Positions 1 to 12,521 of a stretch of DNA of 32,788 bases are shown here, one piece after another. The notes beneath the pieces were generated by a model. That model was given only the letters and a program-made list of their open reading frames with translations. It was not told the origin of the DNA and searched no databases. Position numbers and translations under genes: made by a program. The number at the start of each line of letters is the position of its first letter. The stretch's first letter is position 1. This DNA comes from Thermoprotei archaeon (GTDB lineage Archaea > Thermoproteota > Nitrososphaeria > Geothermarchaeales > JDFR-13). The DNA lies in NCBI GenBank assembly GCA_011043415.1, contig DQXH01000124.1:1-32788 (forward strand). Direction: 5' to 3'.

Positions 1-420
1 CCTCAGCCTAGCTTCAACAGCGCATTCAACCCTCCTCTTCTCTAAATCACTCTTAACGTCTTCAGGTAGGTTAGATGCTACATACCTAGCTACTGGAGCG
101 AATACTATAGATGCTTTAATAGCCATTTTAATTGCTTTACATGGTTCATCATATACTATTACTGACGCATTTGCCAGCAATTCTTTAGCGGTCTCAGTGT
201 TATCCGTCAAGTTCTCTGGAATCTCAATATTATACTCTTCTGCAAGCGAAAGAATGTAATTTATTCTTCTAGATATCTTATCTATAATTGTCTGAGCAAC
301 AGCGATTTTATTGATATTATCCTTACTTGCATATACTATCTGCTGTGTATTTAAATATGATGCAAATCCACCCAAAAGTATAATTGTTATTAGGGCTATC
401 GGCAGTAACTTAATCTCCAT
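1..420 (-). CDS. Partial CDS (3' end outside window): small secreted or membrane-anchored protein with N-terminal hydrophobic helix, unknown function
   Basis: Manual reverse-strand translation from ATG at 420: MEIKLLPIALITIILLGGFASYLNTQQIVYASKDNINKIAVAQTIIDKISRRINYILSLAEEYNIEIPENLTDNTETAKELL..., open to the window edge; absent from the ORF track because it has no stop in the window. Confidence 0.75.
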   Translation of the reverse strand, partial: MEIKLLPIALITIILLGGFASYLNTQQIVYASKDNINKIAVAQTIIDKISRRINYILSLAEEYNIEIPENLTDNTETAKELLANASVIVYDEPCKAIKMAIKASIVFAPVARYVASNLPEDVKSDLEKRRVECAVEARLR

Positions 421-456
421 GTAGTTCACCATTAAAGAATAGGAAAAAGTGCTCTA

Positions 457-511: not shown

Positions 512-721
512 TTACTCTGTCTTAGGCACTATATACTTACCGAAATTCTCCATTATCTTCTTCCATACGTCGAATGACGCCCTGAATGCCTCTAGGTAAA
601 GCATCCAGTAGTATGGATAGATCATCCACCCAAGTGTCTGACTCATTATCGCAAAGATATCGTATGGTGGATAGACCGGTGGGTAAGGCATCCAAGATGG
701 ATACCTATACCACCAGAACAT
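512..721 (-). CDS. Tyr/Trp/Pro-rich small protein (69 aa) with amphipathic-looking C-terminus
   Basis: MFWWYRYPSWMPYPPVYPPYDIFAIMSQTLGWMIYPYYWMLYLEAFRASFDVWKKIMENFGKYIVPKTE; ATG at 721 preceded by GGTGGTGA, which also holds the stop of the upstream ORF. The ORF track starts at GTG 733. Confidence 0.65.
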   Translation of the reverse strand: MFWWYRYPSWMPYPPVYPPYDIFAIMSQTLGWMIYPYYWMLYLEAFRASFDVWKKIMENFGKYIVPKTE

Positions 722-726
722 CCGGG

Positions 727-975
727 TCACCACCAGTATGAAGGATAGTATGCTGTACTATACCATGGGTACATCCAACTGTATCCTGGGTAATACCAGT
801 ATGGATAGTATAGATATGAATATAGCCATGGATTGCCGAATAGGTACCAGCATGCACCTCTACCAAAGATCCAGCCTGGTCTAAGCCATGGAGGTAGATG
901 ACTAAATGGTCCTCTACCTGGCCAAGGGCTCCAGCCCCATCCACCTTTCCAACCCCATCCCCATCTCCATCCCAT
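727..975 (-). CDS. Extremely Trp/Tyr/Gly/Pro-rich small protein (82 aa)
   Basis: MGWRWGWGWKGGWGWSPWPGRGP...YYPYWYYPGYSWMYPWYSTAYYPSYWW; 16 Trp and 14 Tyr in 82 residues. ATG at 975 preceded by AGGTGAT; TATA-like AT-rich stretch upstream. Confidence 0.65.
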   Translation of the reverse strand: MGWRWGWGWKGGWGWSPWPGRGPFSHLPPWLRPGWIFGRGACWYLFGNPWLYSYLYYPYWYYPGYSWMYPWYSTAYYPSYWW

Positions 976-1128
976 ACTAATCACCTATGAATTATTAGCA
1001 TATGCACAAAAATAAATATTTTAATGTTATACATGCATTTACCTTCCGATAAATCTGTAGTATAAAATTACTTAATCAAGAATATTTACACTAAAGGGCA
1101 TATTAATTTTATCTATAGGTGTTTTGCA

Positions 1129-8087: not shown

Positions 8088-8633
8088 GTGGTCGTAATAA
8101 GTTACCGATCGAGACTAGCGGTTAAAGTCACCCTACTCGCTATATTCTCTGTACTGACATTCTTAAGTGCGCTTTTAAATAAATTTACTTTACAGGGTGG
8201 GCAGATATTTTTCTCAATAATATATTCTACAGGTGTACTTACATTAGGTTCATTTGGTAGCGGGACTTTAATAGCCTTTATAGCAGGATTAATGTATATG
8301 TTTCAATCTACATTAGGGTTCTTTAGCTTAGCGTCATTCGCTGTAAGGGGAGTTACAACAGACTTAACGTTTTTATTATTAGGTGTTTATAAGGATTCTA
8401 AACAGTATAGATACAATTGGATTAAGATAGCGATAGGACTCGTGGTAGCAAGCTTCTTGACGGGACTATTCCAATACTTCTTTTTCGTCGTATTCATGAA
8501 GATGTTGATTGACTTCGGTAGATTCATCGTAAGTATAATCTTTCTAGTTGCATTGGTCTCTAATGGAGTCGGAGGATTTATTACAGGGAAGATCATAATG
8601 CCAAGGATATCTAGCATCATTAGGTTTAGATAG
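8088..8633 (+). CDS. Integral membrane protein, possibly ECF-transporter S-component-like
   Basis: 181 aa with about 5-6 hydrophobic segments (VKVTLLAIFSVLTFLSALL, GVLTLGSFGSGTLIAFIAGLMYMF, IAIGLVVASFLTGLFQYFFFVVFM, FIVSIIFLVALVSNGVGGFITGKI). GTG start likely leaderless: TATA-like tttataaat about 30 nt upstream. Confidence 0.6.
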   Translation: MVVISYRSRLAVKVTLLAIFSVLTFLSALLNKFTLQGGQIFFSIIYSTGVLTLGSFGSGTLIAFIAGLMYMFQSTLGFFSLASFAVRGVTTDLTFLLLGVYKDSKQYRYNWIKIAIGLVVASFLTGLFQYFFFVVFMKMLIDFGRFIVSIIFLVALVSNGVGGFITGKIIMPRISSIIRFR

Positions 8634-8642
8634 GTGTATAGG

Positions 8643-9758
8643 ATGGTACACTTAAGATCCTTATTTATAGAACGGGATTTGATGAGAGAGGCCGAGGAAA
8701 GAGTTCTAGAATCATATAGGAGAGGGGGTGTAAGTTCAGTCATATGGACCGTGACATATGCATGTAACCTAAGATGCAGACATTGTTACGAAGCTGCGGG
8801 AAGCCCGTTATCAAATGAGCTTGATACTGAAGAAGCCCTTAATCTTATAAAGGAACTAAGGGAACTCGGTAAACCCATTTTATTCATATCTGGCGGAGAA
8901 CCCTTACTTAGGGATGACATCTATATTATCTTGAAAGAAAGTGTAGATGCTGGAATGAGAGTTATATTAAGCTCCAATGGAACATTGATAGACGATATCG
9001 TAGCTGATAAAATTGCTGATACAAAGGTACATTATGTAGCATTATCGATATATGGCCCAGAAAAGTTCCACGACTATTTCACAAGGGTATTAGGCTCTTT
9101 TAGGAGGACTGTTAATGCATTAAGGTTATTGAGGGAAAGGAGTATGAAGATCGGGATTAAAACTACAGTTACCAGGGAAAACTATAGGCACATTCCCTAT
9201 CTTTTTTATCTCGCTAAAAAGTTGGAAGCGTCTCTAGTCTATATATGTGATTTCATACCCATCGGGAGAGGCTCTAACATGGAGAAAATGGCACTTAGCA
9301 ACATGGAATGGAGGAGACTTATGGACATTCTTATTGAAGACATATTGTTGAATAATGGTTATAGAGATATTGAGATAGACATAGGGGCACATCCATCCAC
9401 CGCTATATATGCTCTCTTAAAGTTAAGGGAACTTGGTTTTAACGTGGATCATGCTATTCAAAGATTAAGATTAAAACGTGAAAACCCTATTGGACAAGGA
9501 TTCATCTCCATATCACCAAGTGGCGATATACTTCTCTCCAACTTCCTTCCAAGTATTAAGCTTGGTAATATACGGGAGATCAGGATTAGGGATGCAATAA
9601 AAAATGATTTATATAGACTTCTTGGAGACTCTAATAACCTTAAGGGAATATGTGGAAAATGTAGCTACAGGCATCTCTGTGGAGGATGTAGGGTAAAGGC
9701 ATACTATAAATATGGTGATTTATTTGAGGAGGATCCATCCTGTATAGTATATAGATGA
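8643..9758 (+). CDS. Radical SAM/SPASM domain protein 1
   Basis: TVTYACNLRCRHCYEA (CX3CX2C), FISGGEPLLR; C-terminal GICGKCSYRHLCGGCRVKAYYKYGDLFEEDPSC (SPASM). Alternative GTG start at 8634. Confidence 0.9.
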   Translation: MVHLRSLFIERDLMREAEERVLESYRRGGVSSVIWTVTYACNLRCRHCYEAAGSPLSNELDTEEALNLIKELRELGKPILFISGGEPLLRDDIYIILKESVDAGMRVILSSNGTLIDDIVADKIADTKVHYVALSIYGPEKFHDYFTRVLGSFRRTVNALRLLRERSMKIGIKTTVTRENYRHIPYLFYLAKKLEASLVYICDFIPIGRGSNMEKMALSNMEWRRLMDILIEDILLNNGYRDIEIDIGAHPSTAIYALLKLRELGFNVDHAIQRLRLKRENPIGQGFISISPSGDILLSNFLPSIKLGNIREIRIRDAIKNDLYRLLGDSNNLKGICGKCSYRHLCGGCRVKAYYKYGDLFEEDPSCIVYR

Positions 9759-9767
9759 GGTGAACAT

Positions 9768-10895
9768 ATGCTCGATTATAATGAAAAGCCTATCTTAATA
9801 TTTTGGGAGGCTACGAAGGCATGTATGCTAAGGTGTAGACATTGTAGAGCCGAGGCTATATTAAATCCTTTACCCGATGAACTATCGACGGATGAAGCAC
9901 TGGGACTCATCGATATGATCACACGTTTTGAAAAGCCATACCCTGTATTAATAATTACAGGTGGAGATCCATTAATGAGAAAAGACTTGTTCGAAGTCAT
10001 CGGATATGCGGCCGATAAAGATATTCCTCTTGGAATAGCTCCGGCTGTCACAGAACTACTTAATGATAAAACCATGGATAAATTAATTGAATATAACGTA
10101 AAGTATATCTCGATCAGTCTAGATGGAGGGATGCCTGATACGCATGACGTGATTAGAGGCGTTAAAGGAAACTTCCATATGACTATAGAGGTATTGAAGA
10201 AACTCGTTAAAAGAGAATTTAAGGTCCAGGTTAATACACTAGCCTGTAAGGAAACTGTGAACGACCTACCATATATAGTTAAAATTTTAAAAGATCTAGA
10301 TATAGATATTTGGGAGGTATTCTTCTTGATAAAGGTAGGTAGAGGGATTGAGGTAGGAGATTTAACACCGAAGGAATATGAAGATGTCAATAATTTCCTT
10401 TATGAAGTAAGTAGATATGGAATTGAAGTCAGAACCGTTGAGGCTCCATTCTATAGGAGAATAGCTAAATGGAGGATTGAAGACGAATATGATTATAATA
10501 AATTGGATGTCAAGTATATTATGAGAAAATATAGACTTGGTGAATTATATGAAGAACTAGTTAAGAAATTAATAGGACTTCTAGGTTATCCACAGAATCC
10601 TCCAAAGCCTCACATACCATCAACGAGAGATGGGAAGGGGATAATCTTCGTATCTTATAATGGAGATATATACCCTAGTGGTTTCGCACCTTATAGACTC
10701 GGCAATATAAGGATAGATGATCTTGTAGAAGTATATAGGAATAACCCTATTCTAATCAGAATAAAAAAAGGAGATTTTAAAGGTAAATGTGGAAAATGCG
10801 AGTTTAAAGATTTATGCGGCGGAAGCAGGGCGAGAGCATATGCGGAATATAGAGATATATTACATGAGGATCCAGCCTGTACGTATATACCATAA
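9768..10895 (+). CDS. Radical SAM/SPASM domain protein 2 (resembles TIGR04053 / AhbD-like group)
   Basis: FWEATKACMLRCRHCRAEA, IITGGDPLMR, SISLDGGMPDTHDVIRGVKG, YNGDIYPSGFAPYRLGNIR, GKCGKCEFKDLCGGSRARAYAEYRDILHEDPAC. SD GAGGTGA before ATG. Confidence 0.9.
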   Translation: MLDYNEKPILIFWEATKACMLRCRHCRAEAILNPLPDELSTDEALGLIDMITRFEKPYPVLIITGGDPLMRKDLFEVIGYAADKDIPLGIAPAVTELLNDKTMDKLIEYNVKYISISLDGGMPDTHDVIRGVKGNFHMTIEVLKKLVKREFKVQVNTLACKETVNDLPYIVKILKDLDIDIWEVFFLIKVGRGIEVGDLTPKEYEDVNNFLYEVSRYGIEVRTVEAPFYRRIAKWRIEDEYDYNKLDVKYIMRKYRLGELYEELVKKLIGLLGYPQNPPKPHIPSTRDGKGIIFVSYNGDIYPSGFAPYRLGNIRIDDLVEVYRNNPILIRIKKGDFKGKCGKCEFKDLCGGSRARAYAEYRDILHEDPACTYIP

Positions 10896-11072
10896 TAAAA
10901 ATTAATCTAATATCAGAGATAGTATATTAATTGATAGAAAATTCAATTTATAGTCTATTTAAATACACTTGAATTTAAGTTAAATCTTATTTACTGCAAA
11001 AAATCTCTAAAAATATTTGATTAAAGATATGAAAAACAAAATTAAAGGGTTCTATTCATAATATATATTTTA

Positions 11073-12521
11073 GTGGTGAAAGGAGTGGAGGACGCTACAC
11101 AGGGTTTAGACGTTAATAAGTTGATGGCTACAATAAGAAGGATGGTTGGGAATAAAGCTGTTAGATTTATTATTAGGAGAATGGGTAACCCGAAGAGAGT
11201 GATTAAAATATTAGGTATATATGCGGGTGTTGAAGAGACGTCTAATATAAGAGAAAAGAGTTGGGCTAAATTAATTTCTAAGTTATTGGAAGAGGCTGGA
11301 TCTAGATTTGGATTCGATTCAAATGAAATTAGATCTAGACTTAAGGATCCATATATTAGGAGAGGGTTAGCAAATATACTACTTGGGATCTCTAAGTATG
11401 GCATTACAAGACCTCAAAGATTATATGCACCGTTTATGATTGTATGGGACTTCACTAAGCAGTGTAATTTAAAATGTAAACACTGCTATGCAAATGCAAC
11501 GCCGTTACCTGCTAAAGATGAACTCACCTTAAGTGAGAAGATGGAGGTATTGAGACAGCTTGATGAAGCCGGGGTTGCCGCAATATCTTTCTCAGGTGGA
11601 GAACCCCTTATGAATAGGGATTTCTGGCCTGTCGCTGAGAAAGCTGCAGAGATAGGAATGTATATCAGCGTAGCCACCAATGGAACATTGATCACAGAGG
11701 GAGTCGCTAAGAAACTTAAGGAGATTGGAGTAAGATATGTGGAGGTCAGTATAGATTCACCATATCCCGATGCCCATGACGAATTTAGAGGTATACCTGG
11801 TGCATGGGAGAAAGCAGTTAGAGGGATTAAGAATGCTAAGAAAGTAGGTTTAGACGTCGGTATAGCGACGACTGTTACCAAGATAAACTATGGAGATATG
11901 CCTGATATGATTAAATTAGCAAGAGAATTGAAGGTAGATAGATTCATAGCATTCAATTTCATACCTACAGGTAGGGGTAAGGAAATTATGGAATTAGATC
12001 TTTCTCCTGACGAAAGAATGGAACTCTTAGAATATTTCTACCAAGAATGGATGAGAGGCGAACTACAGATCTTCTCTACAGCGCCAATGTATGCAATCGT
12101 ATCACTATCTCACATTGATGAGGGAGGAAAGATATCACCAACACATTTTGCAGAATTGGCTATACCTGAGGAATATATGTCTGCTGGCTTTGCATTAGGA
12201 GAATTTCTAGGTGGGTGTGGCGCAGGTAGGATATACTGCTCTATAGAACATAATGGAGATATATACCCATGTGTATTCCTACCGATTAAGGTAGGTAATG
12301 TAATTAAAGATGGATTCCTAAAGGTATGGCATGAAAGCCCGATACTGAAGATGTTAAGAGATAGAGACCACTATGCATGCAGCTCATGTCCATATAGATA
12401 TATATGTGGCGGGTGTAGAGCCAGGGCATACGCATACTTTAACGATATTAGAGGGCCAGACCCGAGTTGTAGCTTTAATGAAAAGTATTGGAATGAGATT
12501 ATTCTAAATATGAAACATTAA
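11073..12521 (+). CDS. Radical SAM/SPASM domain protein 3 with ~120-aa N-terminal extension
   Basis: WDFTKQCNLKCKHCYANA, SFSGGEPLMNRD, EVSIDSPYPDAHDEFRGIPG, CSIEHNGDIYPCVFLPIKVGNV, CSSCPYRYICGGCRARAYAYFNDIRGPDPSC. Possible downstream GTG start at 11085. Confidence 0.9.
   Translation: MVKGVEDATQGLDVNKLMATIRRMVGNKAVRFIIRRMGNPKRVIKILGIYAGVEETSNIREKSWAKLISKLLEEAGSRFGFDSNEIRSRLKDPYIRRGLANILLGISKYGITRPQRLYAPFMIVWDFTKQCNLKCKHCYANATPLPAKDELTLSEKMEVLRQLDEAGVAAISFSGGEPLMNRDFWPVAEKAAEIGMYISVATNGTLITEGVAKKLKEIGVRYVEVSIDSPYPDAHDEFRGIPGAWEKAVRGIKNAKKVGLDVGIATTVTKINYGDMPDMIKLARELKVDRFIAFNFIPTGRGKEIMELDLSPDERMELLEYFYQEWMRGELQIFSTAPMYAIVSLSHIDEGGKISPTHFAELAIPEEYMSAGFALGEFLGGCGAGRIYCSIEHNGDIYPCVFLPIKVGNVIKDGFLKVWHESPILKMLRDRDHYACSSCPYRYICGGCRARAYAYFNDIRGPDPSCSFNEKYWNEIILNMKH

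Follow-up and report, generated by a model that had tools for sequence, protein, structure and literature searches.

Which function could maintain, side by side in an archaeal genome, two very small proteins that are extremely rich in tryptophan and tyrosine? The question is raised by two adjacent minus-strand open reading frames (ORFs), ORF1 and ORF2, near the start of a 32,788-nucleotide stretch of a Thermoprotei archaeon genome (GCA_011043415.1, contig DQXH01000124.1, here C7). We refer to this whole stretch as the window; its source is a metagenome-assembled genome that is 85% complete. ORF1 belongs to a broad archaeal family whose genes share a putative palindromic operator with issA/sipA and other Fe-S genes. 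We propose that ORF1 and ORF2 are stand-alone cationic-aromatic accessory subunits of an IssA-like iron-sulfide storage or trafficking system, a reading to which we give a probability of about one half.

727..975, minus strand, stop included: ORF1, 82 amino acids (aa), with GW repeats, the core SPWPGRGPFSHLPPWLRPGWIFGRGACW and a W/Y/P-rich tail ending in WW (sequence, family conservation)
512..721, minus strand: ORF2, 69 aa, with a disordered aromatic/Pro-rich N-terminus and then one long helix, 22-64 (homologues, structure prediction)

ORF1, starting with the ATG at 975, contains 16 W, 14 Y, 11 P, 13 G, 5 K/R, a single Cys and no acidic residues (isoelectric point, pI, 9.4). ORF2, with its ATG at 721, has 6 W and 10 Y in its 69 aa. 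Neither protein matched a Pfam or NCBIfam family when the window ORFs were scanned, and a PDB search by sequence returned chance matches only.

A conserved archaeal family

The pattern P-F-x-x-L-P-P-W-x-R-P-G-W, scanned in 84,980 genomes, matched at least 119 stretches, and the ORF1 core recurs in at least about 116 archaeal loci. Among the matches listed, nearly all are archaeal, and they include Thermoproteota, Bathyarchaeota, Thorarchaeota, Hermodarchaeota, Archaeoglobales, Hadesarchaea and Thermococcus. The shared core reads WPGxGPFSxLPPWxRPGWxFGRGxCW and is preceded by a G/R/W-rich start. Ten of its residues (PF..LPPW.RPGW) are fixed by the search pattern itself, so their conservation is not independent, but W18, P19, G20, G22, S25, G38, G40 and C42 are conserved outside the pattern. 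The window ORF1 carries the core, including the non-imposed W18, P19, G20, G22, S25, G38 and G40. The family profile, of which the window sequence is itself part, matches in the window's own genome at 1.8e-16.

The reading frames are preserved among relatives. For pairs of close homologues, the ratio of nonsynonymous to synonymous substitutions (dN/dS) is 0.05-0.38 for ORF1 and 0.02-0.10 for ORF2, well below 1. Both families are thus under purifying selection, and the two ORFs are confirmed as real genes, ORF1 being a member of a broad, conserved archaeal family. High W+Y content is a trait of this family (median 27%, maximum 41%, in 111 sequences) and the window ORF1 is typical of its subgroup. 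The tails are of several types: W/Y/P-rich, as in the window ORF1, coiled coil, zinc ribbon and a CARFPWLPRWWW type. At the Asgard loci L043, L062, L092, L114 and L119, for example, a zinc ribbon stands in place of the W/Y tail. The AlphaFold2 model of the window ORF1 is mostly disordered, with a confidence score (pLDDT) of 51 and no long helix.

A single-protein search of 100 related genomes recovered the window copy only. The locus is patchy in its taxonomic family although the contig is native, and it was possibly transferred or lost. Mis-binning was rejected, as another protein of the same contig is 86% identical to one in genomes of that family.

Predicted translational coupling of ORF1 and ORF2

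727..734, minus strand: Shine-Dalgarno sequence GGTGGTGA of ORF2, made of the last two Trp codons and the stop of ORF1 (TGGTGGTGA)
733, minus strand: alternative GTG start of ORF2, overlapping the ORF1 stop
980..985, minus strand: Shine-Dalgarno-like GGTGAT of ORF1 (direct reading of the sequence)

Homologues of ORF2 lie immediately downstream of ORF1 homologues in at least about 30 loci among the matches listed, and 21 of them were aligned. The junction in the window reads exactly TGG TGG TGA CCC GG ATG. The same arrangement, in which the TGG TGG TGA end of ORF1 forms the GGTGGTGA ribosome-binding site of ORF2, is found at four other loci (L027, L070, L086, L213), and the counterpart at L122 has a TAG stop with TGGTGGTAG. 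The frame and offset between the two ORFs vary among homologues, and all remain two ORFs; translational coupling is therefore favored over frameshift fusion, which we reject. These comparisons show a conserved pair with the signature expected of translational coupling.

The AlphaFold model of ORF2 has a long helix (22-64) with a pLDDT of about 90 in its second half. The helix is hydrophobic and aromatic at first, and then amphipathic (hydrophobic moment 0.63). A fold search of the PDB with ORF2 gave zero matches. An earlier note on this DNA, made from the sequence alone, had described the two W/Y-rich ORFs, their Trp and Tyr counts and their junction as given here, all of which hold on rereading, and its suggestion of a C-terminal amphipathic helix in ORF2 is borne out by the predicted structure and the hydrophobic moment. 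It had left the pair as either coupled or joined by a frameshift; the recurrence of GGTGGTGA in distant homologues upholds the first option, and the second falls with the persistence of two ORFs.

A putative palindromic operator

995..1008, minus strand: operator copy TGTGCATATGCTAA, with 8/10 core matches to TGTGCNNNNGCACA and a degenerate right half-site
1009..1022, minus strand: A/T-rich, possibly TATA-like stretch directly upstream of the operator (direct reading)
957..1016, minus strand: about 60 bp (operator, leader and first codons), 95% identical to the start of a DUF5320 gene on contig C6 of the same genome

The palindrome TTWTGTGCATATGCACAWAA, also written TGTGCATATGCACA, precedes ORF1 homologues. 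It was first noticed as upstream translations reading FCAIAQN or VHMHII at many loci. Copies with at least 9/10 core matches were identified upstream of 81 of 121 ORF1-family loci (0.66 expected from upstream sequences randomized with a first-order Markov model), and perfect copies upstream of 39 (0.02 expected from the same randomization). The copies lie a median of 24 nt from the start codon. Only 13 further copies were present in the 880 kb examined, the majority at DUF134, NifX, Mrp or radical-SAM genes, and a reversed-motif control gave no copies in the same 880 kb. DUF134, NifX or Mrp genes occur in the examined flanks of 91 of 120 ORF1-family loci. Membership of the ORF1 family in a common regulon is thus well supported.

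In the window, the operator would sit between the TATA box and the transcription start. The genome contains exactly two copies of the 13-mer TTTGTGCATATGC: this one, and one at C6:31216-31228, ahead of a DUF5320 gene that comes immediately after a DUF134 gene. We searched the openly available literature on DUF5320, DUF134/UPF0251 and the palindrome and found nothing relevant, although the motif may have been described before.

Link to IssA and Fe-S genes

One Thermococcus genome (G300) has four sites with at most one mismatch to the palindrome: at the IssA/SipA orthologue, at a NifX gene divergent from that of an Mrp-like ATPase, at a Cation_efflux transporter gene and at a NifX-ORF1-ORF1 array. 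A perfect copy precedes the IssA orthologues in two Thermococcus genomes. The Thermococcus orthologue (180 aa; 71-aa tail with 11 P, 14 aromatic residues, 8 K/R, 12 G, 1 Cys, pI 10.6) agrees in length and tail composition with IssA of P. furiosus (179 aa; 70-aa tail with 11 P, 14 aromatic and 7 cationic residues, 15 G, 1 Cys, pI 10.7; PMC5524996). The sites show that the ORF1 family shares its predicted operator with issA/sipA and with NifX-type and Mrp/NBP35-type Fe-S genes.

Two of the G300 loci have further features. On contig C138 (L171:2783-3672), a perfect palindrome lies directly before the Cation_efflux (CDF) transporter gene, which suggests that metal export belongs to the same regulon. 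The NifX protein encoded in tandem with two ORF1 copies (L038:233-793) combines a Pro-rich tail with a CIHYKNGKCEFWNLTVHADDPACPFF cysteine motif.

IssA, which forms electron-dense iron-sulfide bodies, keeps thioferrate in particles of up to 300 nm, and its cationic, Gly/aromatic-rich tail has been proposed to wrap the anionic polymer (PMC5524996). In Palaeococcus, the genes for SipA, a neighboring Fe-Mo-cofactor-type protein and CobQ/Mrp-type Fe-S proteins are among the most sulfur-induced (PMC6981617). ORF1 resembles the tail of IssA/SipA (PF2025) as a disordered, cationic, Gly/aromatic/Pro-rich chain with a single Cys; the tail of the Thermococcus orthologue ends in WW, as ORF1 does, and the palindrome of the ORF1 family is that upstream of the Thermococcus issA orthologues. 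ORF1 may thus act like a detached IssA tail that wraps, through electrostatic contacts with aromatic packing, an anionic iron-sulfide (thioferrate) polymer which NifX-domain proteins hold; binding of thioferrate by ORF1 is suggested by analogy with IssA. ORF2 would be its helical partner, kept at a fixed ratio to ORF1 through coupling, and could coat the particle or tether it to the membrane via its aromatic, hydrophobic and amphipathic helix.

In Thermococcus, the gene for a small protein with a G/R/aromatic start and a strongly hydrophobic helix is flanked by the IssA orthologue on one side and by a second NifX gene, with a GRG tail, on the other (L173:1992-2211, L178:1493-1703). The L173 protein, a small membrane protein of the issA operon, is an analogue of ORF2 in its aromatic/G/R-rich N-terminus, its hydrophobic helix and its position between regulon genes, but it is much more hydrophobic, with a Kyte-Doolittle value of 2.8, versus 0.8 for ORF2.

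NifX proteins that continue through a Gly/Met/Arg/Trp-rich linker into a DUF5320-like coiled coil were identified at L142, L084, L118, L035, L091 and other loci, and one such fusion was verified (PF02579 and PF17253 both over cut-off). Since the modules are fused in some NifX proteins, the same modules exist either fused or as separate, co-regulated proteins. ORF1 is, judging from its sequence features, a stand-alone aromatic-cationic module of this NifX/DUF5320 set. Its family shares with DUF5320 (PF17253) the operator, the DUF134/NifX neighborhood and a G/R/W-rich N-terminus. The DUF134-associated operator and neighborhood were found family-wide, with 8/10 core matches at the window site; 36 of 100 family members match PF17253 at E<=1 (best 6e-8), and the paralogue on contig C6 of the window genome is a DUF5320 protein (28.9 bits, gathering cut-off 27). 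The window ORF1 differs in that it has no match to PF17253 (gathering score 27 bits), lacks the GDRTGP...YCAGY start and has a W/Y/P-rich tail in place of the C-terminal coiled coil.

Several observations weigh against a role of the pair in IssA-like storage. ORF1 lacks the NifX domain (IPR003731) of IssA/SipA, and PF02579 matches neither ORF1 nor ORF2. ORF1 is a separate protein with the LPPWxRPGW core, which is not found in the IssA tail, and its likeness to that tail is seen in composition and apparent shared regulation only. The part of contig C7 that the window spans yielded no NifX gene; NifX genes do exist elsewhere in this genome, on other contigs, but they lack a clear operator. Of the two half-sites of the window operator, only one is intact: TGTGCATATGC is retained, and the second half-site is degenerate. 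ORF1 is absent from 10 of 10 genomes of the same taxonomic family (G001-G010) and is not essential there. In many members of the ORF1 family, a coiled coil or zinc ribbon takes the place of the W/Y tail; function may therefore vary across the family.

The main rival is cofactor maturation instead of storage. The regulon could serve Mo/W (ORP-like) or general Fe-S cofactor maturation, with ORF1 and ORF2 assisting NifX and Mrp proteins in a scaffold- or chaperone-like way, as the NifX-domain, Mrp/NBP35 and radical-SAM neighbors would suggest. In the ORP/MrpORP system of Desulfovibrio, Fe-S clusters are bound and passed on by NifX and Mrp domains, and NifX-type and Mrp/NBP35 proteins also occur in one neighborhood (PMC6345978); that system is bacterial, is regulated differently and has no W/Y-rich microproteins described. 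A gene for a tungsten-type aldehyde ferredoxin oxidoreductase, which lies inside the window, is a further point in favor; however, this gene is not recurrent beside ORF1 homologues. The Thermococcus sites, which include IssA itself and a cation-efflux transporter, are a better fit to iron and sulfide load. We consider cofactor maturation a serious but rather doubtful alternative.

DUF134 as candidate regulator

As the regulator that would read the palindrome, the genomic distribution points to DUF134, which carries a sigma-70 region-4-like helix-turn-helix. DUF134 genes are present at 61 of 120 ORF1-family loci and in 13 of 13 tested genomes with ORF1. Palindrome sites and DUF134 genes were also sought independently of ORF1 in 349 genomes of the phylum. 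The palindrome occurred in perfect form 52 times, in 46 genomes; DUF134 was present in 126 (123 above the curated cut-off). Genomes that carry DUF134 account for 33 sites, and at 16 of these the DUF134 gene is no more than 250 bp away (0.016 expected). Presence of the palindrome and of DUF134 is associated (29 vs 17 genomes, Fisher p 5e-5, uncorrected for relatedness of the genomes). In the 22 loci that were read (L194-L215), the palindrome typically has DUF134 on one side and, on the other, a DUF5320- or ORF1-type gene that is divergent or lies downstream; NifX comes next. The operator is thus shown to be associated genome-wide with DUF134 genes, and ORF1-type genes are probably DUF134-controlled. 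DUF134 would bind at the operator, a short distance ahead of the start codon, and may couple expression to iron plus sulfide.

The literature cited here on issA/sipA names no regulator; a specific operator and a candidate regulator are now offered. Three groups of "unknown function" (DUF134, DUF5320 and the LPPWxRPGW microproteins) are tied to Fe-S metabolism, and dozens of uncultured lineages gain new candidate storage subunits. More tentatively, and with the odds against it, a single ancient iron-sulfide storage regulon under DUF134 control may extend from Thermoproteota to Asgard, Archaeoglobi, Hadesarchaea and Thermococci, using Trp-rich microproteins, and not only IssA tails, as an anaerobic counterpart of ferritin. 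The mineral would then carry a cationic-aromatic coat or condensate, with ORF2 as helical shell or membrane tether.

Another protein may read the palindrome, for example an iron-dependent DtxR-family repressor, with DUF134 co-regulated and serving another role. Iron-dependent control of sipA is on record, and a DtxR/MntR-looking gene was identified at 9 loci. We regard this as unlikely given the far more frequent DUF134 genes (at half of the family loci and in every tested genome), their proximity to sites that were found without reference to ORF1, and the operator that DUF134 often shares with a divergent gene, as autoregulators do.

It is quite improbable that the palindrome is an RNA stem-loop in the leader and not a DNA operator. 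The arms TTTTGTGC-NNNN-GCACAAAA could fold as a hairpin, like those between amoC and the next gene in ammonia-oxidizing archaea, but two divergent genes often share one copy (L196-L199, L201, L204, L206, L208), and the A/T flanks and the spacer are conserved in sequence. In Nitrosopumilaceae-like genomes without DUF134 (L218-L222), a conserved intergenic ATTGTGC-NNNN-GCACAAT hairpin adjoins amoC; although similar to the palindrome, this stem-loop is probably unrelated to it.

Lipid granules, non-coding sequence and other window genes

The earlier note had also raised a phasin-like coat of lipid or polyhydroxyalkanoate granules, or a surface role, in connection with the window's acyl-CoA genes. 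The hydrophobic-then-amphipathic helix of ORF2 and the lipid genes elsewhere in the window would be compatible with this, but Pfam gave no phasin match and the PDB no structural match, and the homologues accompany DUF134, NifX, Mrp ATPase and DUF5320 genes, not lipid genes. Polyhydroxyalkanoate biosynthesis genes were not evident among the listed window ORFs, for which no systematic search was made. We consider this role very improbable, although the word granule may prove apt otherwise, by analogy with the electron-dense iron-sulfide bodies of IssA (PMC5524996). That the pair is a non-coding low-complexity tract, as its extreme composition and lack of Pfam and NCBIfam matches might suggest, is refuted by the conserved motif, operator, ribosome-binding sites and low dN/dS across the family, which leave it next to no chance.

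Downstream of ORF2, window positions 1-432 (minus strand) encode a helical protein with a signal-like hydrophobic start, which is cut by the contig end and has no Pfam match. Elsewhere in the window, positions 8088-12521 (plus strand) encode a membrane protein and then a run of three radical-SAM proteins, the last of which has a SPASM domain.
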